Positions 31,988 to 63,016 of a stretch of DNA of 64,000 nucleotides are shown one piece after another. Position numbers and translations under genes: made by a program. The stretch is from Onchidella celtica. Taxonomy: Eukaryota > Mollusca > Gastropoda > Systellommatophora > Onchidiidae. Position 1 is the first letter of the stretch. Every line of letters starts with the position of its first letter. Location: positions 66,603,980 through 66,667,979 of the forward strand of contig OZ007569.1 of NCBI GenBank assembly GCA_963931925.1, in the 5' to 3' direction. Below the pieces are notes generated by a model. That model was given only the letters and a program-made list of their open reading frames with translations. It did not search any database and had not been told where the DNA came from.

Positions 31988-32110
31988 TCAGATTGATAAG
32001 TAACAACGTGAGGGTCTAGTCAGATTGTATCATCGAGGCCGTAGGCCGATGTTCGTCTGGGCAGTAGTCAGATTGACATATCAGGGAAAGCCCCCGGGGT
32101 AGCTATGTAT
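31988..32110. repeat. dispersed repeat, inverted copy of 62764-62898
   Basis: About 120 bp with strong similarity on the opposite strand to 62764-62898, sharing for example CAGATTGTATCATCGAGGCC and GATGTTCGTCTGGGCAGTAG. Confidence 0.75.
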
Positions 32111-32429: not shown

Positions 32430-32673
32430 GGTCTTCCGCCCGTCCGCGCCAGTCAAGAAAACACAACTACCCCAGCCCCTTTTCGCCTGATTAGATCTAG
32501 TCAATCTGACTACCGCCTATTGATACAAACTGACTAGACCCTCACGCCCCCAGGTCCATCTGACCATTCCATGTGTTGTGAGTTTAAATTGATAACACTA
32601 ACAGTGACAATGTGTAACCGTGAGCTTTTACTTAATAGCGGTAAAAAATTGTGGCGCGGACGGGCTGAAGACC
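32430..32673. mobile_element. MITE family A, copy 1
   Basis: Ends are a 22-bp inverted repeat with one mismatch (left GGTCTTCCGCCCGTCCGC..., right ...GCGGACGGGCTGAAGACC). The interior includes CTACCCCAGCCCCTTTTCGC and GATACAAACTGACTAGACCC, shared with other copies. No coding capacity. Confidence 0.8.
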
Positions 32674-33036: not shown

Positions 33037-34165
33037 AGGTGTGTTGGGTAAATCCGGGCCCTTGCAAAAGTTTTCGCGGGCGATTTTCTAGATATCCAGG
33101 CTCATTTAGGCTAGATATGGAGTATGGCTGCCCATAGAGGAAGACCAAGTGCTCCTACTACTATTGTACCTACTCGTTTACCAGCTAGGCCCCTACTTCA
33201 CTGAAAGATTTAAAACTTTCCCATAGAGAACTGTGTAGTGCTACTCATGCTAATGTAGATTGTATTAAATGGTTGGCAGAGCATTGCTTGCTGGCAAATT
33301 CATGCTTATGTCCAAACTGCCAAGAACCTGTGAGTTTTCAGCAACGCCAAGGAGATATCTATGTGGACGGTTTCGCATGGTCTTGTAAACGTTGCAGACG
33401 GCAGAGAAGTATAAGAATTGGATCATTTTTTGAAGGTTCTCATCTATCGCTAAGCCAGATTCTGGACATAGATCTAGGGGCCTAATTTTTTACTGGTCTT
33501 ACGATCTGAGGCAAACTTATGTCCGTGAGGATACGGGAATTGCTCGGCAAAGAGCTGTTGATTGGCAAAACATTAGGGACAGTTGCGCCCAATATTTAAT
33601 TGATCATCCTTTACAGCTGGGCGGCGCCAACAAAACTGTTGAGATAGATGAAAGTAAATTCATGCACAGGAAATATCATCGAGGGCATTATCGTGAAGGT
33701 CACTGGATCTTGGGCATTATTGAACGAGAAAGCAACAATTGCGTTCTCATTCCCGTTGAAGACAGGTCAGCGGCAACCTTGTTACCATTGATCCAGCAAC
33801 ACGTTTTAACGGAGACTCGAATCATCACAGATCAATGGGCCGCTTATAATCAGCTTCCCAACCATAGTTCAGTGAACCATACCCTGTACTTTGTGGATCC
33901 TAATGACCCTACGGTTCACACCAACCGTATAGAGGGCAACTGGGCTAACTGTAAAGCCAAATACAGAAGCATGCATGGCACATCGGATAAGTTGTTTGAA
34001 TCCTACTTGCAGGAGTAGGCCTATATGTGGAAGAAACAACACCGAGACAACATTTTTGGGAATATTCTTTATTGGATATCCTTTTATTACAGCACCTAAG
34101 GTTAGTACAGCCATATCTAGCGCGAAAACTTTTGCAAAGACCCACCGATAGGCTATAACACACCT
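33037..34165 (+). mobile_element. Merlin-type DNA transposon
   Basis: About 1.13 kb with imperfect inverted ends: AGGTGTGTT outermost and TTGCAAAAGTTTTCGCG about 25 bp inside at both ends (33061-33077 and 34121-34138). The gene inside resembles the IS1016/ISXO2-like transposases that define Merlin. Size and orientation fit the superfamily; no target duplication was found. Confidence 0.75.
33240..34018 (+). pseudogene. Merlin (ISXO2-like) transposase, frameshifted
   Basis: The N-terminal part (33273-33485) has a four-cysteine finger, CPNC...CKRC. The frame then shifts near 33475-33485 and continues open to 34018. The catalytic triad of the family is visible: D in VEIDESKF, D in IITDQWAAY and E in NRIEGNWANCK. 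The reading-frame break makes this copy probably dead unless it is an assembly error. Confidence 0.8.
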
Positions 34166-36505: not shown

Positions 36506-36718
36506 GGTCTTCCGCCCGTCCGCGCCAGTCAAAACACAACTACCCCAGCCCCTTTTCGCCTGATTAGTCAATCTGACTACCGCCCATTGATACAAACTGA
36601 CTAGGCCTTCACGCTCCCAGGTCCATCTGACCATTCCAATGCAGGTTGTTTAAGCTTATATCTTAATCATATTATGTTTGTTAACTTTTTGGTAAGTGGC
36701 GCGGACGGGGGGAAGACC
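36506..36718. mobile_element. MITE family A, copy 2
   Basis: The same 22-bp ends as the copy at 32430 and a matching interior (CTACCCCAGCCCCTTTTCGC and onward). Its right end runs into a C homopolymer. Confidence 0.8.
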
Positions 36719-39511: not shown

Positions 39512-40036
39512 GCCTATGGCTTCCACCTGAGATGCCTGCGTCGCATCCTCCTTATTAAGTGGCAGGATAGAACCACCAACGTTGAGGTACTGGAGCGTGC
39601 CAACATGACAAGCATACACGCAACACTCCGCGAGAGAGGCCTTCGGTGGCTCGGCCACGTCAGGCGCATGGATGCAGGCCGCCTTCCCAAAGACCTTCTC
39701 TATGGTGAATTGACAGAGGGCTCACGCGCAACTGGGCGACCCAAACTCAGATACAAAGACGTCTGCAAAAGGGACATAAAACACTGCCTTATTGACATCC
39801 CCACATGGGAGAGCCAGGCTGAGGACCGAGCTGGCTGGCGGCTCACCGTCAAGCGTGGCACGAAAACATCAGAAGGGGCAGACAGATCAACCGCCGCTGC
39901 TAAACGATCTAGGCGGAAGGAAAACAGGGAAAACAGCCAACAACCCCAGCAAAAAACACCATTCATCTGCTCCAGATGCGGCAGGGATTGCCACTCAAGA
40001 ATCGGCCTGCACAGCCACACACGGAAGTGCAGCTAA
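39512..40036 (+). pseudogene. LINE (non-LTR retrotransposon) ORF2 3' end, 5'-truncated
   Basis: An open frame encodes FHLRCLRRILLIKWQD, then LRERGLRWLGHVRRMD, LYGELTEGSRATGRPKLRY, CKRDIK, and a terminal zinc-finger-like ICSRCGRDCHSRIGLHSHTR. This is the C-terminus beyond the reverse transcriptase of a common animal LINE type. The catalytic domain is missing, as expected for a 5'-truncated insertion. It ends about 300 bp before the MULE. Confidence 0.85.
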
Positions 40037-40328: not shown

Positions 40329-40337
40329 TTTTAAAAA
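40329..40337. repeat. MULE target-site duplication, left
   Basis: TTTTAAAAA, identical to 57747-57755 in direct orientation. Nine bases is the usual size for Mutator-like elements. Confidence 0.8.
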
Positions 40338-40398
40338 GGAAGTGCACAGGTAGGGAAGATATTCCCTCCCTATGCACTTTGCATAGGTAGGGAAGATA
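40338..40398. repeat. MULE left terminal inverted repeat
   Basis: Matches the reverse complement of 57686-57746 at about 58 of 61 positions, then runs directly into the 37-bp array. Confidence 0.85.
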
Positions 40399-40870
40399 TT
40401 CCCTCCCTATGCACTTTGCATAAGTAGGGAAGATATCCCCTACCTATGCATGTTGCATAGGTAGGGAAGATATTCCCTCCCTATGCACTTTGCATAGGTA
40501 GGGAAGATATCCCCTATCTATGCATGTTGCATAGGTAGGGAAGATATTCCCTCCCTATGCACTTTGCATAGGTAGGGAAGATATCCCCTACCTATGCATG
40601 TTGCATAGGTAGGGAAGATATCCCCTACCTATGCATGTTGCATAGGTAGGGAAGATATCCCCTGCCTATGCAGTCCCTATGACACTATGTACAGAGTGCA
40701 TAGGTAGGGAAGATGCTTCTTGTCTATTCATTTAGCATAGGTAAGGAAACTATTTTTATCTCCCCATGTTTCTTAGGTCGGGAAGATATTTCTTGTCTAA
40801 CATTTTGCTCAGGTAGGGAAGATATTCTTTCTTTTTGTGCCTTGCCTAGGTGGGGGAAGTAGGGTAATTA
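40349..40870. repeat. 37-bp hairpin-forming subterminal array
   Basis: Eight units of exactly 37 bp (starts 40349, 40386, 40423, 40460, 40497, 40534, 40571, 40608), then diverged units to about 40870. Each unit contains GCATAGGTAGGGAAGATAT and its near-inverse CCCTMCCTATGC, so each can fold on itself. Two subtypes (TTCCCTCCCTATGCACTT and CCCCTACCTATGCATGTT) partly alternate. Only about 1.5 units are present at the right end. Confidence 0.92.
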
Positions 40871-42300
40871 TTGTGCTTGAATTTAATTAGCTTGGTAGAA
40901 ACAATAGTATCTATTTATGTGATTAGGGTATGTGGGGAAGATGTCACTCATACATTATATGTCCAGCGGTGACCTTCGAATGGACCAGACAGTTCTTATA
41001 TAATATGCTTTTACGGGGTGGTTGGGAGTGGGGGAAGATACTGTCTTTGTATTGGTTTGCCCTTTACATTTGTAATGGAGATATTCAAGAACAGGACGAT
41101 ATTTTGATGCTGGCTCCTTGTCTTTATCCTGTCTGGTTTTATGAAAGGACTACATGTATTTCTTATTAATTATGCACTTTGCAGAACCTTTGTTCTACCT
41201 GTAATGTAGTACTTTTGTAGTAAATGTATGTCTAGGGACGTACAACTTGGGTATTGTTCCAACTGCTGTGAAACAGATATGATAGTGCTGACCTCTAGTG
41301 AAAATATGACTGACTTCGATTACATGTTGTGTTCAAAATTTTAGTGGATCCTGTCCAGTTGATAGATTTAAGTAGAGTCTTTTACATCAAACCTAATGTA
41401 TGCTTGGTGAAGCTTTTGTAAGTGACAGTTTAAACATATGTAGCTTTCTGGGTTGGTCTAGTGTTGAGTTAAAATATGGTTTCAAATCCTTTCACATAAT
41501 CTCATTTGAGGAAAGTAAAGAAAAAATAAGATAATTAGGTCAGCATTTTTTTTCTTCAGATTTCACAGAACCTTCTGTTGGGACTATTAGATCTAGTTGC
41601 ATTACTGCATGCCCCTACAGGGCATAAAAAAAAATATCAGCCAAGTAGGCTTATACCCATGCAATCACATGAACATTCACGAAGATCCGTACATTCACAA
41701 AGATACACAAATGGTGTAAGTAGTGTGATAAAAAAAAAGAGTACATGTTTATTTATTGGAAATCATAAATTTTTATTCCTCTTCACAGAATCAGAAATAT
41801 AACAGTGATAGAAAGCATTAACCACAGTTGAAACGTTCCGTATTAAAGTAATACTGCCACACGCAGACATTCATATTTAGCTTACAATACATGAAACATC
41901 CAACGATATGCTTTTTTTTTTTTTTACAACAAAACTGTGGTATGTAAGATAAATAATAAAAGAGTCAGATAAAAGGAACAAATCCATGGAACACATAAAC
42001 TAATATCCATAAAAATATGAAAGCTTATTATCCAAGCCTAACAGTAACAATGACATAAAACTTAAGTTTCTCTGCAGAAGTTCAGTATATGACAGAATGC
42101 AATACCCCATTTTGTTACTGACTTCAAGATTGTCTGAATATATATACATCTGGCAAAGAAAGAGCAATCAGACAAAGAGTCTGTTGTCATATATGTGTGC
42201 AAAGCCATTTAAACTTCTTTCTGGAAAGTTTTGTAAATTATACCCAGACAACAGAGCATTTATAGGGTAACATAATACTGTACTGCATTACAGGTAGGAA
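40871..42300. other. MULE interior without recognised gene
   Basis: AT-rich DNA between the array and the next repeat block; short ORFs only. Confidence 0.6.
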
Positions 42301-42309
42301 AATAAATCA

Positions 42310-42700
42310 GCAGCTACACATAGGCTGTTATGAAAAAAGTTAAGATTCATTGAAGGCAAACAAAATACTGGGTGGTTAAAGTACATCAGCAGCCACATAA
42401 CATTGTATTATAAAAAAAAAAAAAAGAGTTCAGATGCAGAGAGGGCAAACATAATACAGGGTGGTAAAAATACATCAGCAGCCACAAATAGGCTACTCTA
42501 TTATAACAAAAAAAAAGTTAAGATACAGAGAGGGCAAACATAATACATGTACTGGATGGTAAAAATACATCAGCAGCCACATAATAAAAGCTACCCTATT
42601 ATAACAACAACAAAAAAGTTAGATACAGAGAGGGCAAAATTAATACTGGGTAAGAAAAATACACCAAGAGCAACACACATGCCATTATAAAAAAAAAAAG
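42310..42700. repeat. four diverged tandem repeats, about 95 bp each
   Basis: Each unit has GAGAGGGCAAACATAATAC (or a variant) followed by TACATCAGCAGCCACA and an A-run. A fifth degenerate copy lies near 43160-43230. Confidence 0.8.
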
Positions 42701-42907
42701 GCTAGGTGTATTTGGGAATACAGCCTAAATAGCACAAAACCCTGGTTCCAGGTTATTTGGGCTGATAGTGCGAGTTTGCAGTTTGCACTGTTCTGGCATG
42801 TTTTTTTGAAAACACAGAATTTGTGTCCGTACAATATTGCCTAAAGGTAGAGTCAATTACCACCGCATTTTGCAGTGGCCATTGACGGTATGTCGATCGC
42901 CAATGGC

Positions 42908-43010
42908 TACCCCAGCCCCCTTTCGCCTGATTTGTCAATCCGACAACCGCCCATTGATACAAACTAACCAGACCCTCATGGCCCCAGGTCCATATGACCA
43001 TTCCAATGCA
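42908..43010. repeat. third copy of the MITE-A interior module
   Basis: Matches 32466-32571 and 36540-36640 (TACCCCAGCCCC, TTTCGCCTGATT, CAGGTCCATATGACCATTCC) but lacks their outer ends. Instead GTCAATTACCACC (42852) and GGTGGCAATTGAC (43053) form an inverted pair around it. Confidence 0.7.
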
Positions 43011-43301
43011 AACTTGAATCGACAATGGACACCATATTCCGCGCGCGGATCCGTGGTGGCAATTGACAATCCCTTGCCTAAAATACCTGCGGCCCAAATA
43101 GCACAGCACCGGGTTTGTATAGGCCGTATTCGGCCTCAATATACGCTTCCTTAAAACATTCTGAGTTACAGTGAAGGCAAAGATACTACATGTACCTGGT
43201 AGGAAAACTACAACAGGAACCACACATACAATGTATACACAGTATATAGTGATATTGATACTGAGGTAAGATTATTCACAGTCATCTTCTTTCAAACAGA
43301 T

Positions 43302-44515
43302 TTATTCCTTGCAAAAAGTGCAAATGTATTTCAAAGCCTTTGTTGCCTTACTACTTCCAAAAGCACACATTTGATGGAACCATCTGACACAGTTATCACA
43401 CTTGATCCATTCATCAAATTCCTCACACCCGTGCATAGTTCCTTCCAATTTCTGCTCATAACAAACATGGCATAAATTTGTATCGGTAGCAGATCTGCAC
43501 TGAGAAAAACGTTCTGATTGCTTGTTTACTGTCTTTTTACCTTTCTCAGTTATTGCTTTAACTTTTCTGGAGCTTGTTTTGCCCGCACCTTTTGGTCTCC
43601 CTCTTTTTTTCACCTGGCGTGTAAATTTCAAACCCAACTCATTTAGCATTGATAGAGCATCATCATGGCTATGAGTTACTGCTTCAATTTTAGAGCTGTT
43701 ACTGCAGATTTGTACAATATTATTCTCAGGAATTACTTGATCTCCTAAACCTTGTGGAACAGAAACAGACTCAAGGTCTTGCTTATTACTGGATGAGCCA
43801 AGTAACTTTTTCCTCAATCGTTCCTTCACGGAACTTGGCCTTGTCCTTTCGCTACTGTTATCCTGATCATTATTTTGAACACAGGGCAAAAGTTTTGTGT
43901 GCTCATGAAAAGTAACTCCACCCTCTTTCTCAACAGCTATCATTGCTGTGGCATTATCCCTCTCAGCTCTTTTCTCTTTGCCTTCAACCTTTTGCAAATT
44001 ACCAGTTCTTTTCTCCACTTCAACCTCCATTTCCACTATGTTTTCAAATCCCCTACCTCTCTTCCTCTTATGTCCAGCAGGATTCAAAATATGCTCATTC
44101 TCTCCACCCTCAATAGCTCTATCTCTTGCCTCTTTATTCCCCCCATCTATGGCTACTTCCAAATTATCTTTCATAATTTCCATTTCTACCATTTCTGTGG
44201 GCTCATCTCTCTCCCCTCTATTCCTACTACCCATGGCCACATCCGAACTCTCAATGTCTCTCTGCAGCTCAATCTCTACCACATCTATGGCTCTATCTCT
44301 GCTAATAGTTTCAAATCTGTGTACTTCCTGATAAAAAAATTCTCCCCCTACCTCTCCAGTCTCTACAAACTCAGTTCCATTTGTCTCATTTCTGTTCCTT
44401 TCATCTCTAAACACCAAACACACATCCTGTTCTCCTGGATCTCTCACCATCATGTCCACCTCATTTTCAACTTCTTCATAATTCTCTTCTGTCCCTTTCC
44501 TTCCCCTAGATGTGT
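43302..44515 (-). pseudogene. MULE transposase, C-terminal part: AT-hook-like patch and PHD finger
   Basis: A continuation of the transposase beyond the LTR insertion. After a long acidic/basic low-complexity linker come KKRGRPKGAGKTSS (AT-hook-like) and a C4HC3-type PHD finger: CHVCYEQ, then EEFDEWIKCDNCVRWFHQMC, then YICTFC, then stop. PHD fingers usually read histone H3 tails. The frame open from 44459 does not match the frame entering from 52054, so about one base is gained or lost near 44493-44505. Stop at 43302-43304. Confidence 0.75.
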
Positions 44516-44520
44516 CTCAT

Positions 44521-45902
44521 TGTAACAGGGTGATAGATTGGCAAGGTATAACTAGTAGTTATAATAATATTGTGCCTATAACTAGCGTGGGAAGATAGTT
44601 AACGGCGGGGAGACAGAGTCATTGTAGGCCAGAGGGGGAAAGTATGGGATGCAACTGAAGCGCTTTGACACCCGAAAAGGGTAGTGTTTACTTGACCGCC
44701 GTACTTGTCGATCAGATCACCTGGGAATTGCTTGGGGGGTAGAGCTGTTTCAATAGTATTTGACGTGGAGCCGACGGGGGTGGCTATTAGGATAACTAAT
44801 GCACACTCGGTGGGCGTCTTGGGACGCTACCTGACTGGGTATAAATCCCCGAACGCTCCTTCCAACTTCAGACCGCTGAGAGCACTCACCAGCTTCGTGC
44901 CGAAGAGGAGACCACAACTGCAACTGTAACTTTGTACTAGTCTTGTGAGTGGGGAAGGTCAGGGAACCCGCAAACATCCTTTGTCAGAGCGTGGTATCTT
45001 TGGTATCTTGTCGGCATTTGAGCTGTTGCTGAGTGGTAAGTTAATTGTACGATGTATGTGTATTTTACTTAATGTTCATGATTGTAGAACCTAAATCTAG
45101 TGGGTTTACTTTGGTATAACTACTGCCTCTGAGAGAGTCACGGAAACGCCGTTACATATATGTTACGAAACCTTATAGGATGGGGTCTGTTAGAGAGAGC
45201 GTTATTCTTCGTGGGGAACGTGTAAATATCATTAAAACTGCATTGATCGTTTATTCTATTGCCTATATGGGAGCCTATGGAGTATGGGAGCTGCAGCCTG
45301 ACTTATAACAGTGTCAGCGGTTAAAAGTATTAATGACGAATATCCGTCATGGAGTAAGTACGGAAGTCATGCCTTCCAGCAGTAGATTAGGAAGTTGCGA
45401 TTGTTTTTCTACAGAGGAGGAAGAACAACACCTTCTTGGCTTCTCAACTTCTTGTACTTTGATTAACGACATCGTGGCTTCTTGGCTTCCCGACCTATTG
45501 GTACCTGCCGATACCTGTTGATCTAACTGCGCAGTCAAGCCAGGGTAGAGAGGAAGAACCAGTGCCCAGATAGCGCCATACACCCCTAAAGGAGAGGTTT
45601 CCTTATGCTGAATGTTCCCATGTGTTTTATAAAATGTGCTAGAAATTGAATATTACGAAGCCATTTAATTAGCATGTACTGATTTGTATCAACTTCATTC
45701 CATCGAAATTCACATGAAATTGTATGACCTGTGTTCCTATTATTATTGAATGAATTAATAATTATTGTATATATGTAAGCAATACAGATATCGTTTGTTA
45801 TAACTTATAGAAGAGAGATAGTCGATTATTTAGTGTGTTTGTGCCGTGCCCATCACGGCTGGTGTCAGAAGAAAGTTAGTGAGAGAAAGTGGAAACATCA
45901 CA
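44521..45902 (+). repeat. 5' LTR
   Basis: 1,382 bp, TGTAACAGG to ACATCACA. A TATAAAT lies at 44840-44846, about 320 bp in, and is the likely promoter. Short ORFs inside it occur identically in the other LTR and are not genes. Confidence 0.93.
44840..44846 (+). promoter_or_regulatory. LTR TATA box
   Basis: GGGTATAAATCCCC within the 5' LTR; the same motif is at 50987-50993 in the 3' LTR. Confidence 0.55.
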
Positions 45903-45903
45903 A

Positions 45904-45921
45904 TGGTGTCAGAAGTGGGAT
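45904..45921 (+). promoter_or_regulatory. primer binding site, tRNA-Leu-like
   Basis: TGGTGTCAGAAGTGGGAT begins one base after the 5' LTR. It is close to the complement of the 3' end of animal tRNA-Leu (TGACACCA end). Confidence 0.65.
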
Positions 45922-46158
45922 CCTGCTAGTAAATAACATTTAATTTTGATCTGGGTCGTGTCAAGGGGCTATTGTGTGATTGTGTGGACAGGTCATCTGC
46001 CCTGAGGCGAGTGAGAGAGATTGACATTTAGTGCCTGCGACATGCTCTGATTTTACCTGTGCATTGACTGTTCAATTTTATCTTTTGTCACAGAGAAAAT
46101 TGTTGTTTGCTATTGCAGGAATATTGTTGTTAACTTCACAGTTACGATCCACGCTTTA

Positions 46159-49100
46159 TTGTTAGCTGTGTTTACAGGTCAATTGCTGATGGACTATCTG
46201 GGCGCACTGAAGCTTGCCAGACAAGAAGGCATTAGTGATGAGGAATTCAAAATTAGGTGGGACGAAGAGAAAGCCCAAAACCGAGAACAAAGGGCTATCG
46301 AACGAGAAGAAAAGGAGCGCGAACGAGAAGAAAAGGAGAAGGAAAGACAACTTGAAAGGGAGAGAATGGAATGCGAACGGGAACTAGCCAAAAACGGGTG
46401 TCACAATGGTAAAGGGAATGGAAAATCTGCTGCCCCGAAGGTACCTAAAATTGCCATTTTTGATGACTCGCGCGAGGATCTCGACTCGTATTTGAAAAGA
46501 TTTGAAAGGCTCGCGCAGGCAAATGATTGGGAAGAAGACACCTGGGCAGACATGTTAGGGGCATTGTTAACTGGCAGGGCGTTAGATGTTTATTCCGGTC
46601 TCAGCGATGAAGACAGTAGGGATTACGAGAAGGTAAAGAAGGTGTTGTTCAAGAAGTATCACCTCACGGCAGAGGGTTATAGGCGTAAGTTTAGGGAGAG
46701 TCGTCTAGATAAGGACGAAACTTATACGCAGCTGTCCGTGAGATTGCAGAGATATTTTGAGAGGTGGGTAGACCTCTCAGAGGCAGAGAGAACTATGGAA
46801 GGGATTACGGATCTGTTAGTCAGGGAGCAGATGTTGAAGATTGTCGACTGTAATCTTTCCATATATTTGAAAGAGAGGGACCCCAAGTCCGTGCATGAGT
46901 TAGTTGAGATGGCGGACTTGTATAGTGAGGCTCATCAGTCGAAGCGAGGGCTGGAGCAACAGCAGAAGTCAGGTAAGAGGGTTGAGGAGAGCAGAAGTAA
47001 GGGTTTAGGAGTGAGTAAACCGGTATGCTTCAACTGTGGCTCTCCCAATCACCTGAGTAGGCAGTGTGACCAGGGCAGGACGAAGAAGGGTGCTGCTGCC
47101 ACTGTCGAGGACAACCGAGGTAAGTCCCAGCGTGAGAGTGGGCGTGGTTGTTTTGTGTGTGGGTCACTTCTCCATATTGCGAGATTCTGTAGGAAGAGAC
47201 AGAAAGAGACGACCGCAGTCGTACTAACCAGCGATGAGGAAGCCGATGACAGTCAGTGGGAGTCATCGGGCAGGGCGAATACTCAACCAGGGGCTGAGCA
47301 GAGTGTTGGGCCACAGACCTTCATTTCTTGGGAGACGGAAGGTAAGAGTATTGAGTTAGAAGGTTCGACAGAACATGAGCCCGAAGACGATGTTCCGGAG
47401 AATGATTTATCCGCTCCATTTTTGGAGAAGGGGAGGATAGGGGATAAAGAGATTACTATCCTTCGTGACACGGGATGCACGTGTGCGATTATAAAAAGGG
47501 ACAAACTGCCTCCTAACAGCTTAACTGGGAAGAACAGGAGTTATGTCCTGATGGACGGGACGAGAAGGTCTGCTCCTGTCGCGGAAATGTGGGTAGAAAC
47601 CCCATTTTATACTGGGCTTCTCAAAGCGCTAGTAGTGGAAGACCCAGTGGCCGATTTGATTATAGGAAACATAAAGGGGGCGTCTCTTGAGAAGATAAGT
47701 GTGGTACTCACGCGATCTCGCAAGGTGGAGATTGACAAGGAAGAGCATGAGTGTGAGAATGCGAGTGCGAAAGTGAGTCAGACCACAGATAATGAGGAGG
47801 CCAAGGGCAACTCAACGGAGGAGGTAAGGGTAGGGGCCAAGATAGGGGAACTCACACCAGGTGAGATAGCCCGGGCCCAGAGAGAGGACGAAACTTTGAG
47901 AGTTTTAAGGGAGAGAGCCACGTTGGAGCAATCGGCTGAGGTAGGTACTCACATAAAGGAGAGTAAGGGAATTTACTATCGGGTAAAGAAGGCCGGGGCT
48001 GGACATGCTGATGTGGAGCAGTTGTTGGTACCTAAGCAGTACCGAAGTGAGCTGATGAAGATAGCTCACGAAGGAGTGTTCGGGGGACACTTAGGAATTT
48101 CGCGCACACAGGACAGAATAATGCAGTCGTTCTTTTGGCCTGGGATAGGTGCGGACATAGGTCGTTTCTGTCGATCGTGTGACGCGTGTCAAAGGACATC
48201 CAATAAAGGTAGGGTGACAAAGGTACCCCTAGTGCCGACGCCCCTGATCGACACGCCCTTTTCGCGCGTCGCCATAGATTTGGTTGGTCCACTTCCGCGT
48301 ACGGAACATGGGAGATCGCGTTATATTTTGACGCTAGTAGATTATGCCACGCGTTCCCCGGATGCCGTAGCCTTAAGGGGGATATCAGCTGAGCAGGTCA
48401 GTGAAGCGTTAATGGAAATATTTTCTCGGTTAGGCATACCAAAGGAAATAGTTTCAGATAGGGGATCACAGTTTACCGGTGAGCTGATGAGAGAGGTCAG
48501 TGCACTTCTCAAAACGAAACAGATATTCTGCTCGCCCTACCACGCGATGGCCAATGGTCTGTGTGAAAGATTTAACGGAGTGCTGAAGAATATGCTTCGC
48601 CGAGGAGCTCATGACAGACCCAAGGACTGGGACGGAATGTTGTGTCCACTGCTGTTCGCGTATCGCGAAACCCCACAGGCCAGTACAGGTTTTTCGCCGT
48701 TTGAACTAGTGTTCGGTCACCCTGTGAGAGGACCACTTGCAATACTGAAGAATCTGTGGACTGGGGAAGCGGAGTCAGAAACGAGGTCATCGTACGAATA
48801 CGTGGTAGATATGAGGGAACGATTGGAGGATGCCATGAAAGTCGTAGCCGAGAACAGCAGCGTCGAAAAACACAGGCAGAAGAAATACTACGATAGGGGG
48901 GCCGAACAGAGGAAATTCCAAGTGGGCGATTCCGTCCTCATACTTCTCCCAAGTGACGGATCGAAACTACAGATGACTTGGAAAGGGCCTTACAAAGTAG
49001 AAGAGCAGAGAGGGTCAGTGAACTACATGGTGAACGTCAAGGGGAAGAGACGACTGTATCACGCGAATATGCTGAAGAAGTATATTGAGAGGGAAGACGA

Positions 49101-49317
49101 ACAGGAAAACACAGAGGCAATAGCTGCAGCTATAATTGACGAGACCGATGAAGGAGAGGAAGCGACTTCGATGCCTCTGGAGACAGTCATGCCTAAGCTA
49201 GAACAGACCGAAACCTACAGGGATGTACAGTACGCTAGATCAGGATCAGAGAGAACAGATGCAAGAGCTCATGGAAGAATACAAAGATATATTTACCGAT
49301 GTACCGGGGCTCACTGA
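46159..49317 (+). CDS. retrotransposon Gag-protease-integrase polyprotein
   Basis: 1,052 codons open. In order: a Glu/Arg-rich coiled coil (about 20-80); a capsid region whose later part (YRRKFRESRL...LVREQ...ELVEMADLY, about 170-260) resembles the SCAN fold known to derive from GMR1-like Gag; two CCHC knuckles, CFNCGSPNHLSRQC at 290 and CFVCGSLLHIARFC at 331; an aspartic protease DTG at 437; an integrase HHCC region from about 637; a DDE core with D707, D767 and E803 (D-E spacing 36); and a GPY-like tail, WKGPYKV. The chosen ATG is the first in the frame; an upstream start is possible. The final 30 codons overlap the RT frame and look non-coding. Confidence 0.9.
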   Translation: MLAVFTGQLLMDYLGALKLARQEGISDEEFKIRWDEEKAQNREQRAIEREEKEREREEKEKERQLERERMECERELAKNGCHNGKGNGKSAAPKVPKIAIFDDSREDLDSYLKRFERLAQANDWEEDTWADMLGALLTGRALDVYSGLSDEDSRDYEKVKKVLFKKYHLTAEGYRRKFRESRLDKDETYTQLSVRLQRYFERWVDLSEAERTMEGITDLLVREQMLKIVDCNLSIYLKERDPKSVHELVEMADLYSEAHQSKRGLEQQQKSGKRVEESRSKGLGVSKPVCFNCGSPNHLSRQCDQGRTKKGAAATVEDNRGKSQRESGRGCFVCGSLLHIARFCRKRQKETTAVVLTSDEEADDSQWESSGRANTQPGAEQSVGPQTFISWETEGKSIELEGSTEHEPEDDVPENDLSAPFLEKGRIGDKEITILRDTGCTCAIIKRDKLPPNSLTGKNRSYVLMDGTRRSAPVAEMWVETPFYTGLLKALVVEDPVADLIIGNIKGASLEKISVVLTRSRKVEIDKEEHECENASAKVSQTTDNEEAKGNSTEEVRVGAKIGELTPGEIARAQREDETLRVLRERATLEQSAEVGTHIKESKGIYYRVKKAGAGHADVEQLLVPKQYRSELMKIAHEGVFGGHLGISRTQDRIMQSFFWPGIGADIGRFCRSCDACQRTSNKGRVTKVPLVPTPLIDTPFSRVAIDLVGPLPRTEHGRSRYILTLVDYATRSPDAVALRGISAEQVSEALMEIFSRLGIPKEIVSDRGSQFTGELMREVSALLKTKQIFCSPYHAMANGLCERFNGVLKNMLRRGAHDRPKDWDGMLCPLLFAYRETPQASTGFSPFELVFGHPVRGPLAILKNLWTGEAESETRSSYEYVVDMRERLEDAMKVVAENSSVEKHRQKKYYDRGAEQRKFQVGDSVLILLPSDGSKLQMTWKGPYKVEEQRGSVNYMVNVKGKRRLYHANMLKKYIEREDEQENTEAIAAAIIDETDEGEEATSMPLETVMPKLEQTETYRDVQYARSGSERTDARAHGRIQRYIYRCTGAH

Positions 49318-49846
49318 CCTGATCAAGCACAAAATCCCATTGCTAGATCAAAAACCTGTGAAGGTAAGACCCTACCAACTACCGTACTCAACTAGAGAAG
49401 CTGTCAATGCTGAGGTAGGCAAGATGCTTGCGGCCAGAATCATCGAACCGTCCGAGTCCCCGTACAATAGTCCAATTGTATTAGTTAAGAAGCCCGATGG
49501 TCAACATCGTTTCTGCAACGACTACAGGCGGCTAAATGTTGTGACTGCCGATGACGCCGAACCGATGCCTGAGGTAGAAGCCATTATTTCCAATCTAGCG
49601 GAGGCAAAATATTTCACCAAGCTGGACTTGACAAAGGGCTTTTATCAAGTTCCGATGGCCGAGGAAGATAAACACCTGACGGCGTTCGCCACACCGTTTG
49701 GGCTATACCAGTACAGGGTCATGCCGTTCGGGTTGAAGGGATCCCCCGCCACATTTAACAGGCTCATGAGGAAAGTATTAAAAGATGCTGGCGAAGGGGT
49801 AGATGCATTTGTAGACGACTGTCTTATACAGTGCAAATTGGCCTGA
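49223..49846 (+). pseudogene. reverse transcriptase, N-terminal part
   Basis: Frame +1 relative to the upstream ORF. It starts in LDQDQREQMQELMEEY, has the family's SPYNSPIVLVKK, FTKLDLTKGFYQ and MPFGLKGSPATF blocks and the catalytic FVDD. It then loses frame at about 49830, just after the active site, ending at a spurious stop. Confidence 0.88.
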
Positions 49847-50093
49847 CCACTTGGAACGTTGTCGGAATGTCTTCGAGCGACTGAGACGGGCAAATTTAAA
49901 AGCTAGACCTACCAAGACGCTAATAGGGATGACAGAAGTCGAGTACTTAGGCCATAAGCTGGGACAGGGGACTGTAAGACCGCAGGAGAGTAAGGTGCGA
50001 GCCATTGTCGACTGTGACCGACCGACGACCAAGACACAAGTGAGGAGTTTCCTGGGGCTAACGGGGTACTATCGGAAGTTTGTACCAAATTAA
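49836..50093 (+). pseudogene. reverse transcriptase, thumb/connection part
   Basis: Continues the RT in the next frame (NWPDHLERCRNVFERL, then EVEYLGHKL and SFLGLTGYYRKFVPN) and breaks again at about 50090. Together with the neighbours it forms one RT-RNase H region in three frames. Confidence 0.85.
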
Positions 50094-50616
50094 CAGTGCA
50101 ATCTCGGCGCCGTTGTCAGACCTCACAAAGAAGTCCCAGGGCACAAAGTTCGCGTGGGGACACGCGCAGGAGAACGCGTTCAATGCCCTAAAAATTTGTT
50201 TGAGTTCCGAGCCGATACTACGGATGCCAGACTGGAACAAGGAACTGATTCTCCAGACAGACGCATCTAACCTTGGAGTGAGTGGCTGCCTACTTCAAGA
50301 AGACGAGGGTACGAAGTATCCAGTTGTATATGTTAGCAGAAAGTTGAAACCCGCGGAGAAGAACTACTCAACAATTGAAAAGGAATGCCTGGCCATAGTT
50401 TTCGCCGTTAGTAAGTTGCAGGCGTATCTGTATGGGAGAAACTTCGTGTTAGAGACGGACCACCGACCTCTAACTTGGATGCGAACTAAAGACCAGAAGA
50501 ACGCGAGGGTAACTAGATGGAACCTGGCGCTGCAACCATATAACTTTCGAGTCAGCAACATCAGGGGGCGAGACGCTCTATGGGCCGACACTCTATCTAG
50601 ATTACCAGTAGATTAA
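50080..50616 (+). pseudogene. retrotransposon RNase H
   Basis: Carries APLSDLTKKSQ, ILQTDASNLGVSGCLLQ (first catalytic Asp), EKECLAIVFAVSKLQAYLYG and LETDHRPLTWM, the gypsy RNase H pattern. It ends DTLSRLPVD and a stop shortly before the polypurine tract. Confidence 0.88.
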
Positions 50617-50654
50617 TAATTTTATTAGCCGATTTTGCCAGGGAAAATCGACTT

Positions 50655-50666
50655 AAGTGGGGGCGA
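50655..50666 (+). promoter_or_regulatory. polypurine tract
   Basis: AAGTGGGGGCGA ends one base before the 3' LTR, the expected plus-strand primer site. Confidence 0.65.
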
Positions 50667-50667
50667 T

Positions 50668-52049
50668 TGTAACAGGGTGATAGATTGGCAAGGTATAACT
50701 AGTAGTTATAATAATATTGTGCCTATAACTAGCGTGGGAAGATAGTTAACGGCGGGGAGACAGAGTCATTGTAGGCCAGAGGGGGAAAGTATGGGATGCA
50801 ACTGAAGCGCTTTGACACCCGAAAAGGGTAGTGTTTACTTGACCGCCGTACTTGTCGATCAGATCACCTGGGAATTGCTTGGGGGGTAGAGCTGTTTCAA
50901 TAGTATTTGACGTGGAGCCGACGAGGGTGGCTATTAGGATAACTAATGCACACTCGGTGGGCGTCTTGGGACGCTACCTGACTGGGTATAAATCCCCGAA
51001 CGCTCCTTCCAACTTCAGACCGCTGAGAGCACTCACCAGCTTCGTGCCGAAGAGGAGACCACAACTGCAACTGTAACTTTGTACTAGTCTTGTGAGTGGG
51101 GAAGGTCAGGGAACCCGCAAACATCCTTTGTCAGAGCGTGGTATCTTTGGTATCTTGTCGGCATTTGAGCTGTTGCTGAGTGGTAAGTTAATTGTACGAT
51201 GTATGTGTATTTTACTTAATGTTCATGATTGTAGAACCTAAATCTAGTGGGTTTACTTTGGTATAACTACTGCCTCTGAGAGAGTCACGGAAACGCCGTT
51301 ACATATATGTTACGAAACCTTATAGGATGGGGTCTGTTAGAGAGAGCGTTATTCTTCGTGGGGAACGTGTAAATATCATTAAAACTGCATTGATCGTTTA
51401 TTCTATTGCCTATATGGGAGCCTATGGAGTATGGGAGCTGCAGCCTGACTTATAACAGTGTCAGCGGTTAAAAGTATTAATGACGAATATCCGTCATGGA
51501 GTAAGTACGGAAGTCATGCCTTCCAGCAGTAGATTAGGAAGTTGCGATTGTTTTTCTACAGAGGAGGAAGAACAACACCTTCTTGGCTTCTCAACTTCTT
51601 GTACTTTGATTAACGACATCGTGGCTTCTTGGCTTCCCGACCTATTGGTACCTGCCGATACCTGTTGATCTAACTGCGCAGTCAAGCCAGGGTAGAGAGG
51701 AAGAACCAGTGCCCAGATAGCGCCATACACCCCTAAAGGAGAGGTTTCCTTATGCTGAATGTTCCCATGTGTTTTATAAAATGTGCTAGAAATTGAATAT
51801 TACGAAGCCATTTAATTAGCATGTACTGATTTGTATCAACTTCATTCCATCGAAATTCACATGAAATTGTATGACCTGTGTTCCTATTATTATTGAATGA
51901 ATTAATAATTATTGTATATATGTAAGCAATACAGATATCGTTTGTTATAACTTATAGAAGAGAGATAGTCGATTATTTAGTGTGTTTGTGCCGTGCCCAT
52001 CACGGCTGGTGTCAGAAGAAAGTTAGTGAGAGAAAGTGGAAACATCACA
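50668..52049 (+). repeat. 3' LTR
   Basis: 1,382 bp, the same length and ends as the 5' LTR; one substitution seen. Confidence 0.93.
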
Positions 52050-52054
52050 CTCAT

Positions 52055-53654
52055 TTTGTGACTCATATATTCCTATATCAAGAGCTAATATAGATTTCCC
52101 TTCTCTCCAGACTTGTCCAAGTGACTTTAGAACCTCACATCTTTCTTTAAATTCTTCTTGACCACAGGCTACCATTCCTTCAAGAACTTCCCTCCATATG
52201 TCTGTAGCTAAACTCCGTTTTTCAATCTCAGACATTTTTTTGCTCTTGGGCCTTTCAATCACACTAACAGAGTGTGATCCTTGACCTAAAACAGGGTGTA
52301 TTTTGTTTAAATTTTCTTTCAACCAGTGGCTGGGAATGTTTGCAAACAATGGTTCATTCGAAACAGATCTAAAGTACAATAAATGCCAACAAGGCAGTTT
52401 TGTCTGAACAAAAAATAAACAACTGCACTTATCATTGCTCACATCATACACAACACTCTCATCTCCACTACCTCTCTTCACATATAGACATTTTCTCTCC
52501 AAATTGACCTGAACCAAACTTTCATCAGGCACTTTCTCTATCTGTTTTTTTAACATTGTGCAAGCTGCAGGGGAAAGTTTAGAAGTGACTCCTTCCAGAG
52601 CCTTCACAAAACATGCAGGGCCATTGTTCACTCTGAGCACCTTTGATCGCAGCGTTAGATCTGTCAGTTTTTGTGAAAATTTGGTGTCTTCAGCATGATG
52701 CATCATCAGTAAGGCACTGATCAAATCTGGCAGGCTTTTATGATGGTCACTGATATCTTTGATTTTTCTGTTCTGTCTCTCTAGAAAATTGTTGGTGAAA
52801 TTCCCCCATGTCACGTGATATTTGGTCAGATGCTGTGCCCAAGGTCTGCTTTAAAGGGATCCAACACTTATCTACATAGCATTTCAAATCCAGGGGTAGA
52901 GCGTTGTATGCAGATGTAAAAACATCTTCAGTGTCCGCATACAACATGCGGAATAAATTTGTTTTAGCTTCTTCTTTATCATGGCAACTTAGAGACCTAC
53001 AGTACTTTGGAATGGCATCCTTGAAAGTTTTTGCCACGTGAAACCTGCAAAGTAATATGTTTGCATCAGGAATAGCTGATCTCAGAGCTGCAATTTCTGC
53101 TCTGTCCTTGTCAACAATTACAGTTTTGGTATTTCTAACAACAGGATTGAGGGAGACAAATTTCGAAATCACATCCCGCAGAGTAAGTTCGTTTTCATTC
53201 CTTACTATGGCATATGCCACAGCATGCCCGCTGTTATCTCCATCAATAACCATCAGCACATACAACGGATACCCCAGATTATTAATACAGTAAGTTCCAT
53301 CAACACAAAGAATATCCGGAAATATGTTCATGTAAGACCTCATGGAGGAGGTCTGAAAAAATATCATAGATATGTCTCCCATTTCATCTCCCTGTACAGC
53401 AAACTGTGCCTCCATGTCAGTTTGAGCCATATCCGTCAGAACCTTCCACGTCTCCTCTTCCACTGTTCTTCCATTTCTTTTAGCTTCTTTCCATTTATAT
53501 ATGGCATTGCTAATATCGTGTCTTCTGAAAGCCTTCCCACTGGTTGACTTCATGTGGCCAAGTAGTTTTCCACAAGATACGCCAAGAGAAGACAATTTAG
53601 TGACTGTTTCTTCCTCTTCAGATGTCATCTGCCTGTCAGAGGCATAGTGGAAGC
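52055..53654 (-). pseudogene. MULE transposase exon 3: DDE core and SWIM finger
   Basis: Acceptor CTGCTAG, entering with GC that completes a Ser codon from exon 2. MULE core: D in ILCVDGTYCINN, D in VIVDKDRAEI, the C..H of LLCRFHVAKTF, and E in NNFLERQNRK. A SWIM finger follows, CSCLFFVQTKLPCWH (CxC then CxH), as in ZSWIM3-like proteins and MULE transposases. A one-base frame change near 52850 separates PLKQ from the in-frame PWAQHLTKYH region. The exon runs into the LTR element at 52054 and resumes at 44515. Confidence 0.85.
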
Positions 53655-54677
53655 CTAGCAGAATGAATAAGAAAGAAGAGAGTTGGTAAACGGTACATGA
53701 AATAATAACTTAAGATCAGAGTGCCACTATTAATTCTAACAGTGGGAATTTTTAGACTGCTGAAGTTTCCTTCTCTTACTTTTATTAATTTGTTCAAACT
53801 TCTTGTTTCATGAATTCTATTTAATGATTCAGATCCTTTGGATTTCTACCTTTTATAATGGTTATGATGAAATCGGCTCTGAAAAAACCCCCGAATGTGT
53901 GGCATGCAATTGGAAACTATCAATAAAGCATATTTTGACTGAATGTGTAGATTTCATGCATATCTGAAGAAGGCACTATGCCTGCAAATCCATGAAATAA
54001 TTATTTCCTAACATCGATCCACAGCATGTCTTGTCCTTTCTGAAAGAGGCTAAGATCTACAGCTTAATTTATGAACGTTCATACGCATTTACAAAACTCT
54101 TTTCAGATTATGTATATTATGTCTTAAAACCCAACTTTTAAGAATTTTACCAGTGCAATAAGATAAATATGGAACTATTTAATTCTGTTTGTGAAATCTA
54201 CAAGCTCTGCATGCCAAACATGAATAGAGTACCAAATAAACCGTGAAAGGCACAAAGTGGTCGTTACCATACCAGCACCGTAAAACCCAATCTCAAAATC
54301 ATGATTCCACTATAATCATAATGGCTGGCAGCCCTGCTTAAAAAATGACAACAATAAAAAGTAATGAGTTTCAAATTACAAGAAAAAAAAAAAAAGGTTA
54401 AGGGAATGTGCAAAGCGCAAATAAAAATATCTCTCTGAACACAGACATGATTACTAAATAAGAATTAAACCACAGATTTTTCTGTTTTTCCATTATATAC
54501 ATGTGCGGATTTTGCTACCATCTTTTGATTTTGGTGGCTGCATGTGGAAATGGCTTTTCCATTCTCCACTATTCCCCTTTCCCTAAGATATCACTTTGAA
54601 CAGTCTCTAAGGAAGAACCGCAAAATCAGGAAGTATATATAATTATACATGTAATAAAATATTTGAATGATAATTAC
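53655..54677 (-). other. MULE transposase intron 2
   Basis: 1.0 kb, AT-rich, with GT-AG borders; nothing else recognised. Confidence 0.7.
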
Positions 54678-54793
54678 TGGATGCTGATGGGTGGTCATGG
54701 TTGTGGCCCAGTTCACACGTGGCAATCTCCAAAACATCTTTGTCTCTTCTTGCAACAATCTTCAGCTTCACAGGACATGCAATCTTGTTTGAG
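54678..54793 (-). CDS. MULE transposase exon 2: FAR1/ZSWIM-like finger, second half
   Basis: Acceptor CTATTCAG, donor CCA before GTAATT. It encodes SNKIACPVKLKIVARRDKDV, then LEIATCELGHNHDHPS. The C...HNH pattern is the FAR1/FLYWCH-like DNA-binding region at the start of MULE and ZSWIM3-type proteins. It is one base in and one base out, matching exons 1 and 3. Confidence 0.8.
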
Positions 54794-57297
54794 CTGAATA
54801 GTAGAAATACAAAATGTGAGACTAGATGCCTGGGAAAACACCTAAAGACATCATTAACAATTGTAAATGAAAATGTCCCGTTAAATAAATAAGGAGTACA
54901 CCAATAGGAACATGTGACTGATAATTTATAGTTGGGGTATCCAACTTTGGCATTTCATAAATTGAGGGAGGACTATATATATCCCTCTCGTATTTCAAAC
55001 ATTTTGAATCAATACCAACACCTTTCCCCACTTATTGCAAAACACTAAATCTTAACCCTCGTCCCGCATTGAGTCAACTCGTCCACGTAACACCCTGTGT
55101 GGGGAAAGCCAGTGACCAGACAGCTGATCGTTCACGTGTTGCCAATAACTTCTGCAGTCGGGTCAATCGGGTCCTTTTGAACACATGTATCGTGTTTATT
55201 TTAGGGTGCAATAACAACAATAATAGTGGATAAATCGTAAGTGACCCCTGTGATATTTGGATACAGTACTTGTGATGAGATGCAAGAATTTTTGCATTTA
55301 CATACCGTTTAACACACATTTTATCTTTTTCCCAAGAGCTCTGCCCTTTATTTGTCCCTCAGTCAGGCCATTCAGGTGAACAAATTATTTTTTAAGCCAG
55401 GGACTTAATGTACTAACCACATGTATCATGGCGTTGCCTTCTCCCTCCTCCACTATAGATGAAAAGGTTCTACTTACTATGATGTTAATTGTTCGTTTTC
55501 TTAGCACATCTTTAACAAGAGATTTGGTTTCCAGCTGGTAAGCTATATACATTTACTGAAAAATGCAACACAATATCTCTCTAATTACTACATTAAACAA
55601 AGATAACGACCAACAACAATAACGTCAGTCATTTTCTCCCAGTCTTCCCTGAAGAAAAGCTTAACAAAAGACACCCTTATGCAGCATGCCCTAGTATTAC
55701 ATGTATATCGGAATTCATTATTATATTACAGACATAGAACGGTTTTTCAAATATTATGCAGATGGCCCTTTTCTTCTCATTTCACATGTAGACGACAACC
55801 AGCATCAATATTCAAAGTCAAATGTTTCCCTAAGATTTCCCTCAGATAGAATTTCAGACAGCCCCCCCCCCCCCCCCACAATAGCTACGAATAGTTGCAT
55901 CGTAATAAATGTAATCGGACGATGTACCCCTTTGTTAGACATAGTAGGGGTTGAAAGGATATATAAATGGCGAAACAAGCGAAACTAGTCTGAAAAAAAA
56001 AACGTGACAAAAATGATAGTTGTAGCAACCGAATTTAAACCAAAAACATGAGAAGCAGTGTTGCTGGACAATAAATTGGCCTCCCGCTGCACCCGGTTTA
56101 GAATTTGTAGGCCACAATATTGGCCTCGCATGCAATATATTGGCCTCCTGCAGAACGAAGGTTAAAATGCCAATTTTCAACTCAAATGTCAAAGTTTTAT
56201 CAATCAAACAGTTTATTTTGTCCTATGAGAGGAAGGCCGCGCGGAACGTGGAGAAGAGCCAGAGAAAATGATGTGCAACGAAGCGGAAAGACTTGGAATA
56301 ATGTAAAGAGACTGGCCCATGATAGAGAGGGATGGAAAGTGTTTGTTGGTGGCCTATACCCTGATCCAGGGTGAGAAAGGCAATGATGATGATGATGATG
56401 ATAGGCCTTTGAAAATCTTACTGATAGAAATTGTGAGCACCATCTTAGTAGCTTGTGCAGAAGTATGAGATGCATTCGGAAGGGAAGTCCATCCAAATAT
56501 TCCAAACTTGAGCCAAACAATAAGTCTTCAAAAAACTGATTTGAAGACATTATTGTGAAATAAAGAACGCACTCACGTTTTCTGTGGTATGGTGCCCATT
56601 TATAAATTATGTACACAAATCTTTCCCCCCCATTGTTTATTCATACGTCATGACTCTTCCTAACTCTAGTCAAGAAAACGTGGTGATTTCAGGACTGATA
56701 GTGATACAGACTTTTACAGTGATAGATCTATCTATTCTTAATTCTAAATTCTAGTAGGCCTACTACTACTCTACTGGTTTTGAAAAGAAAAAAAATCATG
56801 TTTGCAGTAAATTAGCTCGTAATAGTTCATCCAAACTTCCATACTAAATCTAGTAGGCCTAGTGTCTCTCCCTGCTCCCCTTCCCCCCCATACACATTAC
56901 ACAAAATCCCTGACTAATGCAGCACTCCTGTCAAGTCAATCTTCTTCGTTGTAATCTTGATTGCAAAAGGAAGGAATTGCGAATGCACCCCAAACACATT
57001 TAATACTAATAATAGCGTGAATACTCTCTTCCCCTTACTTGTGTAAGTTTTGATGAACACTTCATTTTGCCTGATGATGCTAAGCCCTTCAATCCTTTGT
57101 TGACCCTTTACTGAATAGGCCTGCTCAAGATCTCAAGTGGGGTGCTAGATCTAGCCTAAATCTATCTGTCTGAGATCTAGACTCTACTAGTCTAGATCTA
57201 GAGTCTAGATCTAAAAATCAGAATGCTGTCTTAAATATTGTGTGACTGAGGTGGATAAGGAAATCCTTCCTCACTTTAAAAGTCTTGATCATATTAC
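54794..57297 (-). other. MULE transposase intron 1, 2.5 kb
   Basis: Contains a nested LINE tail (56215-56402), a C tract near 55862-55877 and a CTAGATCT patch near 57160-57215. Otherwise unassigned. Confidence 0.7.
56215..56402 (+). mobile_element. LINE 3' end, nested in the MULE
   Basis: Encodes RGRPRGTWRRARENDVQRS, then KTWNNVKRLAHDREGWKVFV and GGLYPDPG, then stop: the C-terminal tail common to many animal LINE ORF2 proteins. It ends in an ATG/GAT microsatellite (56383-56402), a usual tail for such elements. Severely 5'-truncated. Confidence 0.75.
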
Positions 57298-57590
57298 TTA
57301 ATGTTTAAAAACTGTACTTGTGCATTCCCGAATCTTTCCTCGTGAAGCAAATGTGCCCTCATGAATGCATCGTAGGTGAACCCAGGGCCGCAGGCATACT
57401 GAAAATCGTGGCGATAGTGCCGATTAACATCTTTTATTTTTGAATTGGCCCGAGCCACGGTCATATTGCCATTTCCTTTCACCAGTTTTTCATTTAGTTG
57501 TTGTTTTCTCCTCTCCAGCACTGCCTCAAACTCAGCAAAAGTACGAAATGTCTGCCCTTCGTACAGTTGAAGATTTGCATCTCCCTCCAT
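57298..57590 (-). CDS. MULE transposase exon 1
   Basis: Starts MEGDANLQLYEGQTFRTFAE and runs to HYRHDFQYACGPG and HEERFGNAQVQFLNI. It is 97 codons plus AA, donor before GTAATA. The two spare bases and exon 2's first base make a codon, so the join is in frame. The FxTFAEFE start and a Cys-containing second half fit the N-terminal domain of ZSWIM/MULE proteins. The ATG is only about 95 bp from the right terminal repeat. Confidence 0.75.
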
Positions 57591-57685
57591 GTTTCAGGCA
57601 ACGAAAAACGACATCGGAAATCGGAAGTACTAGGCTAAATTTAGACCAATAACAATTCCATGCAATTGGTGATGACGTAGTACAC

Positions 57686-57746
57686 TATCTTCCCTACCTA
57701 TGCAAAGTGCATAGGTAGGGAATATCTTCCCCACCTATGCACTTCC
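57686..57746. repeat. MULE right terminal inverted repeat
   Basis: Inverse of 40338-40398 with three mismatches. It holds one full and one partial hairpin unit. Confidence 0.85.
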
Positions 57747-57755
57747 TTTTAAAAA
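57747..57755. repeat. MULE target-site duplication, right
   Basis: TTTTAAAAA, a direct copy of 40329-40337. Confidence 0.8.
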
Positions 57756-62475: not shown

Positions 62476-63016
62476 GTGTCTAGCGAGACCAGGATTCTGA
62501 TCACCCTAGCCTGTGGTCTTGGGAGACCAGGATCCTGGTCTCTCTAGACTCGGGGCTAGAGAGACCAAGATTTTTCCCAGCCAGTGCGCATGTCTACGCC
62601 GGATCTTTCCTTCTCGATTTTTTAAAATAAGAGAACGCATCATTTCCGATCTCTTCGCCTCACAGGCGTCAGCACCCAGCCTTGGCCATGGCGGCAACTT
62701 TGTCTGTTGGGGATAAAGCACCCTCGTGTACACACCACGTTCCATAGCCCGAGTGAAAACAGTACATAGCTACCCTGGCGGCTTTCCCTGATATGTCATC
62801 CTGACTACTGCCCAGACGAACATCGGCCTATGGCCTCGATGATACAAACTGACTAGACCCTCACGTCGTTACGTATCAATCTGACAATGCCTATGCACTT
62901 GTCAAGTTATGGAACGCATTCGGAAGTCCTCCCAAAATCTTGGTCACCCTAGCCCAGGATCTTGGTCTCCCAAGACCACAGGCTAGGGAGACCAGAATCC
63001 TGGTCTCGCTAGACAC
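62476..63016. mobile_element. palindromic MITE, 541 bp
   Basis: Ends are inverted repeats of roughly 60-100 bp (left GTGTCTAGCGAGACCAGGAT, right its inverse ending GCTAGACAC). Each end is itself made of GGAGACCAGGATCCTGGTCT-like palindromes. The centre carries the module shared with 31988-32110. No protein was recognised; the ORFs inside are mirror images. Confidence 0.75.
62764..62898. repeat. dispersed repeat, inverted copy of 31988-32110
   Basis: Matches the distant copy on the other strand and shares GATACAAACTGACTAGACCC with MITE family A. Confidence 0.75.

Follow-up and report, generated by a model that had tools for sequence, protein, structure and literature searches.

Rehavkus transposons, which are regarded in print either as an outgroup or as a member of the Mutator-like elements (MULEs), are described as having a 9-bp target site duplication (TSD), a PHD finger and a minisatellite located ahead of the 3' terminal inverted repeat (TIR) (PMC6446971). 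One representative, Rehavkus-1_TC of Tribolium, is 9.5 kb long and has inverted termini with 164-bp tandem units (PMC10218199). Likewise, Muta1 of Aedes aegypti combines tandem repeats with a terminal palindrome of 10 bp (PMC5225508), and complete arthropod MULEs range from 1,875 to 9,972 bp (PMC13359780). Here we describe an element located at positions 40338 to 57746 of a 64,000-nucleotide stretch of DNA from Onchidella celtica (contig OZ007569.1, positions 66,603,980 to 66,667,979; hereafter the window). The balance of the evidence inclines towards its being a cut-and-paste DNA transposon of the MULE superfamily, about 9.9 kb in length, with a 9-bp duplication, an anatomy like that of Rehavkus and probable kinship with that group. 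The general type is already known, and the element is an ordinary MULE in kind and a defective copy. Since the proposed kinship is drawn from anatomy, it is probably best termed a Rehavkus-like MULE.

The outer ends of the element are separated by 17,409 bp, and the initial annotation of this locus had placed these ends and both TSD copies correctly to the base. The duplicated sequence, TTTTAAAAA, abuts the element on its outer side at positions 40329-40337 and again at 57747-57755, and the two copies agree at 9/9 positions, as had been reported. Two random 9-mers from the window agree with a probability of 1.3e-5. This duplication is nevertheless a weaker witness than a 9-mer of mixed composition would be, because the AT-only TTTTAAAAA occurs seven times on the plus strand of the window (its reverse complement occurs eight times) and is almost palindromic. 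Being nearly its own reverse complement, it also causes the inverted repeat to extend at 8/9 positions into the TSD, which yields arms of 71 nt (94%).

Inside the duplications lie the 61-bp TIRs that the initial annotation had recognized. The left TIR (40338-40398, plus strand) lies 3' of the transposase gene, and the right TIR (57686-57746, minus strand) is on the 5' side of the gene and comprises about 1.5 palindromic units. The left TIR and the reverse complement of the right TIR are identical at 58/61 positions without gaps. A chance origin of these repeats is ruled out by a control with 20,000 random 60-mer pairs from the window, among which the best pair reached 31/60. Because the repeat units are palindromes, part of the inversion between the ends follows automatically. 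The independent evidence that two inverted ends are present is the sequence GGAAG, which stands immediately 5' of the unit's TGCA at both outer ends (at 40338 on the plus strand and at 57746 on the minus strand). The combined 9-mer has one further occurrence in the window, at position 40023 outside the element, and GGAAG alone is also present within internal repeat units. Both the TIRs and a TSD within the range of 8-10 bp are features of MULEs, and all three general MULE features that were tested are present at this locus.

The left end consists of a palindromic minisatellite, for which Tandem Repeats Finder gives a 37-bp unit in 8.9 copies at positions 40343-40672 (91% matches, 0% indels). 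Degenerate copies run on to about position 40855, and the array includes the left TIR itself. All nine units are palindromic at 28-30 of 34 positions. Among 63,194 34-mers taken from outside both ends, the mean is 8.6, six reach 28 and the highest value is 32. The first half of the unit, when up to three mismatches are allowed, has 22 matches in the window and all of them are located at the ends of the element (19 left, 3 right). In addition, the left array folded as single-stranded DNA has a z score of -18, and none of 100 shuffled sequences is as stable. Because the units are palindromic and the array folds far better than its shuffled versions, the TIR is a foldback-type end made of palindromes. 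FB-NOF is a foldback-type element whose composite TIRs contain tandem repeats.

There is a second minisatellite between the 3' end of the gene and the left TIR, with an 89-bp unit in 4.0 copies (42333-42699; 75% matches, 10% indels). Nearby, at positions 42907-43010, is a copy of a short dispersed repeat that is also found outside the element at 32467-32571 and 36540-36643 (85% and 88% identical to the inner copy). The inner copy suggests a further insertion in the 3' part of the element.

The gene is located on the minus strand; it starts near the right end and runs leftward. Predicted exon 1 (57382-57590) begins with a start codon at position 57590, 95 bases from the right TIR as measured to its inner edge, and predicted exon 2 (54678-54793) encodes the end of the N-terminal domain, with a C..C..H.H arrangement like that of zinc-binding sites. 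Predicted GT-AG splice sites join these exons and exon 3 (from 53654) in frame. The multi-exon structure claimed by the initial annotation is thus a prediction that depends on these splice sites. Exon 1 alone matches the ZSWIM3_N domain with 14.8 bits, and the joined model matches profile positions 4-102 of 102 with 17.0 bits, both under the cut-off of 27.8 bits.

Pfam matches above their cut-offs in the catalytic exon confirm the gene. The first half of this exon (52848-53654, edge approximate, minus strand) includes the first catalytic D near position 53301, the second near 53112 and a CxxH motif at 53038-53049. The core scores 111.3 bits with PF21056 (ZSWIM1-3_RNaseH-like; cut-off 27.2) and 66.8 bits with PF10551 (MULE; cut-off 27.6). 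The second half (52055-52847, edge approximate, minus strand) is read in another frame and includes the catalytic E near position 52781 as well as a SWIM finger of the form CxCx9CxH at 52383-52427, which scores 21.8 bits against a cut-off of 19.6. A match to ZSWIM1-3_C reaches 12.8 bits and is under its cut-off of 27.6. All of the D, D, E and CxxH positions are therefore present in the order typical of MULEs, with the E in a shifted frame. The spacing is 63 residues between the two D positions, 24 from the second D to the histidine of CxxH, and about 110 from the second D to the E. These matches bear out the earlier description of a gene with a SWIM finger and MULE DDE motifs. Together, the domains, motifs, TIRs and TSD support the broader proposal of a MULE-type transposon whose ends are complete and whose transposase gene is ZSWIM-like. 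A search of PDB sequences with the catalytic exon gave a single match up to an E value of 10 (OTU1, E 0.077), which is not credible, and a single-sequence structure prediction for the read-through catalytic half had a mean predicted local distance difference test score (pLDDT) of only 37.8.

The prominence of the ZSWIM1-3_RNaseH-like model, flanked by sub-threshold matches to ZSWIM3_N and ZSWIM1-3_C, could also be explained if a host ZSWIM3-like gene had been captured between transposon ends to form a Pack-TIR element. We consider this very improbable, because the catalytic residues and the CxxH motif follow the MULE order (with the E in the shifted frame), the CxxH spacing is as in Muta1 although the D-D and D-E distances are shorter (PMC5225508), and the proximity of the start codon to the right TIR suits a gene that is the element's own.

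A one-base frame break near position 52850 separates the second catalytic D from the E. A single +1 step leaves 542 codons free of stops, the last eight of which are inside a long terminal repeat (LTR) of a nested retrotransposon. When the reading is carried across the break, a match to Transposase_mut grows from profile positions 182-268 to 182-362 and its score rises from 14.3 to 18.5 bits (cut-off 21), which argues that the two catalytic halves belong together. When the sequence was inspected by eye for an intron that might resolve the break, a single GT..AG pair was considered; its length of 30 bp is below that of an intron and is divisible by three.

The nested LTR retrotransposon is separate from the DNA transposon and occupies positions 44521-52049 on the plus strand, as established by its LTRs, TSD and domains. 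It is flanked by copies of its own TSD, CTCAT, at 44516-44520 and 52050-52054. The insertion is 7,529 bp long, and its LTRs of 1382 bp have one mismatch, a near identity that suggests recent insertion. Its domains are arranged in the order gag (SCAN, CCHC), integrase, reverse transcriptase (RT) and RNase H, with RT spread over more than one frame. The location of integrase before RT and the link to SCAN are characters of Gmr1-like Ty3/gypsy elements. The retrotransposon splits the coding region 3' of the SWIM exon. When it and one copy of its TSD are removed, the DNA transposon measures 9,875 bp, close to the maximum published for complete arthropod MULEs (PMC13359780). The length of 17.4 kb given in the initial annotation is thus correct as a distance but overstates the DNA transposon itself. 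Also absent from that annotation are the nested retrotransposon, the PHD exon discussed below, the frame break and the minisatellite character of the ends.

The frame break and the nested retrotransposon leave the element without the intact transposase frame of an autonomous transposon. Because its transposase is broken, this copy is a fossil or at best moves in trans. As judged from its coding sequence, it is unable to make its own full-length transposase, and any movement would be at most in trans. A complete, active 17.4-kb MULE would be in keeping with the nearly perfect ends and TSD, but is extremely unlikely given the broken catalytic frame, the interrupted coding region and the fact that 7,529 of the 17,409 bp belong to the retrotransposon. 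For the same reasons, this copy lends no support to the earlier suggestion that genes annotated as ZSWIM3-like may be active transposons.

On the other side of the retrotransposon, the 3' coding part of the element (43302-44515, minus strand) has about 404 open codons with a PHD finger at the end, as indicated by Pfam, PDB and sequence features. The reading frame closes with a TAA that overlaps an AATAAA. Pfam scores the PHD finger at 21.5 bits (E 2.4e-4), which is 2.5 bits below the 24-bit cut-off, and its nearest PDB matches are KDM5B (E 4.3e-4) and KDM5A (E 6.2e-4). The finger is on the same strand as the SWIM exon and is located between the ends of the element. However, its frame is off by one relative to that of the SWIM exon when the retrotransposon insertion site is joined, and therefore a further intron or frame break is needed if the PHD finger is to be part of the same protein.

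The anatomical features of Rehavkus can be compared with this arrangement. There is a 9-bp TSD, and there is minisatellite sequence before the 3' TIR in the form of the 37-bp and 89-bp arrays. A PHD finger is present between the ends, but its frame does not join the SWIM exon directly and its score is below the cut-off. We use the label Rehavkus-like rather than Rehavkus because two of the three features are found, the PHD finger is a putative part of the same protein, and the placement is anatomical.

Several observations weigh against this placement. The element is known from one copy, with neither a second copy nor an empty site observed, and its assignment to the vicinity of Rehavkus is anatomical and not phylogenetic. 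The frame of the PHD finger differs from that of the SWIM exon, and the finger scores below the Pfam cut-off. The matches to ZSWIM3_N and ZSWIM1-3_C are likewise under their cut-offs, and a scan of the longer read-through protein does not list the latter. Furthermore, a published table gives only a PHD finger and no SWIM finger for Rehavkus, whereas this element has both (PMC6446971). Finally, the distances of 63 residues between the D positions and about 110 from the second D to the E compare with 69 and 136 in Muta1 (PMC5225508).

Some of these observations can be accommodated if the element is a MULE of another animal clade (Phantom/Muta, Curupira, Ghost or MULE-Mollusca) whose foldback ends and PHD exon were gained independently of Rehavkus. 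A minisatellite after the transposase open reading frame (ORF) is described for aphid Phantom elements, and subterminal tandem repeats together with a terminal palindrome are described for Muta1 (PMC5225508). Transposases predicted to have several exons are on record as well. The published table also lists a SWIM finger for Curupira, Ghost and some Phantom elements and not for Rehavkus, but the PHD finger is listed there for Rehavkus only (PMC6446971). No FLYWCH match is listed up to an E value of 5 for the joined N-terminal model, which counts little against this alternative. Most matches weaker than about E 0.1 are removed by the filters of the search, and Phantom elements, in which an N-terminal FLYWCH finger is common, are listed with no finger, a FLYWCH finger or a SWIM finger (PMC6446971). 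We regard membership of another clade as a possible but less favoured explanation than a Rehavkus-like MULE.

Searches for relatives were made in viral, bacterial and archaeal collections, which are uninformative on copy number in the host. In viral contigs, short patterns from the protein matched 8, 33 and 7 stretches in three scans, none of which was confirmed, and the same is true of 29 stretches in bacterial and archaeal genome contigs. There is no exact match to a 19-base repeat pattern in the viral contigs, and tblastn gave no match in phages (for the catalytic exon up to the break plus the out-of-frame tail) or in plasmids.

The domain content of the element also raises the matter of its relationship to ZSWIM1 and ZSWIM3, proteins that are known here from Pfam models alone. 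In vertebrate ZSWIM3, the domain order is ZSWIM3_N, RNase H, SWIM and ZSWIM1-3_C. The same order can be read in the sequence of this gene, with the first and last domains below their cut-offs, and is suggestive. The likeness thus consists of a strong match to ZSWIM1-3_RNaseH-like, a SWIM finger and the two weaker flanking matches. The gene described here differs in that it is located between transposon ends with a TSD and is followed by a PHD exon. Although PF21056 outscores the MULE model, it is also the longer model (128 versus 99 positions), and the two scores were compared with no other animal MULE as a calibrator. One tentative explanation, which we consider rather doubtful, is that a Rehavkus-like lineage that includes this element was the source of the domesticated vertebrate genes ZSWIM1 and ZSWIM3, such that all four domains came from one transposase while the PHD finger and the ends were lost.

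Judging by titles and the beginnings of abstracts, none of the papers listed on ZSWIM or ZSWIM3 together with transposons addresses descent from a transposon, which is no proof of novelty. Among the items found for MULE transposase, ZSWIM and FLYWCH, those on ZSWIM look by title like expression studies. Passages from a review of transposon domestication name plant genes derived from MULEs, and ZSWIM is not named in them (PMC8616336). The present locus is valuable in that it fixes the exact limits of an animal element, the protein of which could easily pass as a ZSWIM3-like host gene. If the kinship is upheld by a tree, the origin of the ZSWIM1 and ZSWIM3 genes becomes a testable question.

We can propose a mechanism by which such an element might have functioned. 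The gene would have encoded a transposase in which a ZSWIM3-like N-terminal zinc-binding domain was followed by a DDE core of the RNase H-like type, then by a SWIM finger and, at the C terminus, probably by a PHD finger. Judging from Muta1 and other MULEs, this protein may have bound the repeated palindromic units at the ends. Perhaps it cut at the outer ends and reinserted the element with a 9-bp stagger, as is known from MULEs studied elsewhere, and in this way it could have mobilized its own element in the past. The PHD finger might, more speculatively, have tethered the complex to modified histones. In this copy, the catalytic domain has suffered a one-base break and the 3' coding region has received a retrotransposon, in either order.

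Outside the element, host-gene ORFs were surveyed with Pfam for 17 of 223 listed ORFs, besides those of the retrotransposon, and two domains were found. An exon of a FEZ-family host gene is located at positions 9510-9863 on the plus strand (Pfam FEZ, 92.1 bits), which indicates a metazoan host. An ISXO2/IS1595-type DDE transposase domain at 33434-34015 (plus strand, 64 bits) marks another family of DNA transposons within the window. There is also a match to SNORD10 at 28446-28584 on the minus strand, with a score of 37.2 bits compared to the Rfam gathering score of 37. Lastly, an inverted pair of 126-bp sequences, 94% identical, is found at 31984-32109 and 62763-62888, about 31 kb apart.

Among the known systems, Tetris and Tm1 resemble this element in having composite TIRs with tandem repeats, along with a TSD of 8-10 bp in Tetris (PMC4079207) and 9 bp in Tm1 (PMC3169594). 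However, the Tetris copies reported were found to be without conserved ORFs (PMC4079207), and the transposase of Tm1-A is a FLYWCH-MULE protein of 496 amino acids (PMC3169594). Muta1, which belongs to the Phantom clade, is similar in its MULE DDE core with CxxH, its TSD of 8-9 bp, its TIR, which combines a terminal palindrome with tandem repeats, and the prediction that several exons encode its transposase (PMC5225508). The second D and the CxxH histidine are 24 residues apart, as are D283 and H307 in Muta1 (PMC5225508). In contrast, Muta1 has a FLYWCH finger, two exons, a length of 3,198 bp and 12-bp units (PMC5225508), whereas the element described here has no listed FLYWCH match, carries a PHD finger and has shorter catalytic spacings. 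The likeness to Rehavkus, a group represented in Repbase, extends to the 9-bp TSD, the minisatellite before the 3' TIR, tandem units in the inverted termini and a size of about 9.9 kb compared to 9.5 kb, and probably also to the PHD finger. This element differs from Rehavkus in that it has a SWIM finger as well, and its core scores best with the ZSWIM1/3 model. It joins features that have been printed apart, namely a SWIM finger on the one hand and a PHD finger with a minisatellite on the other.

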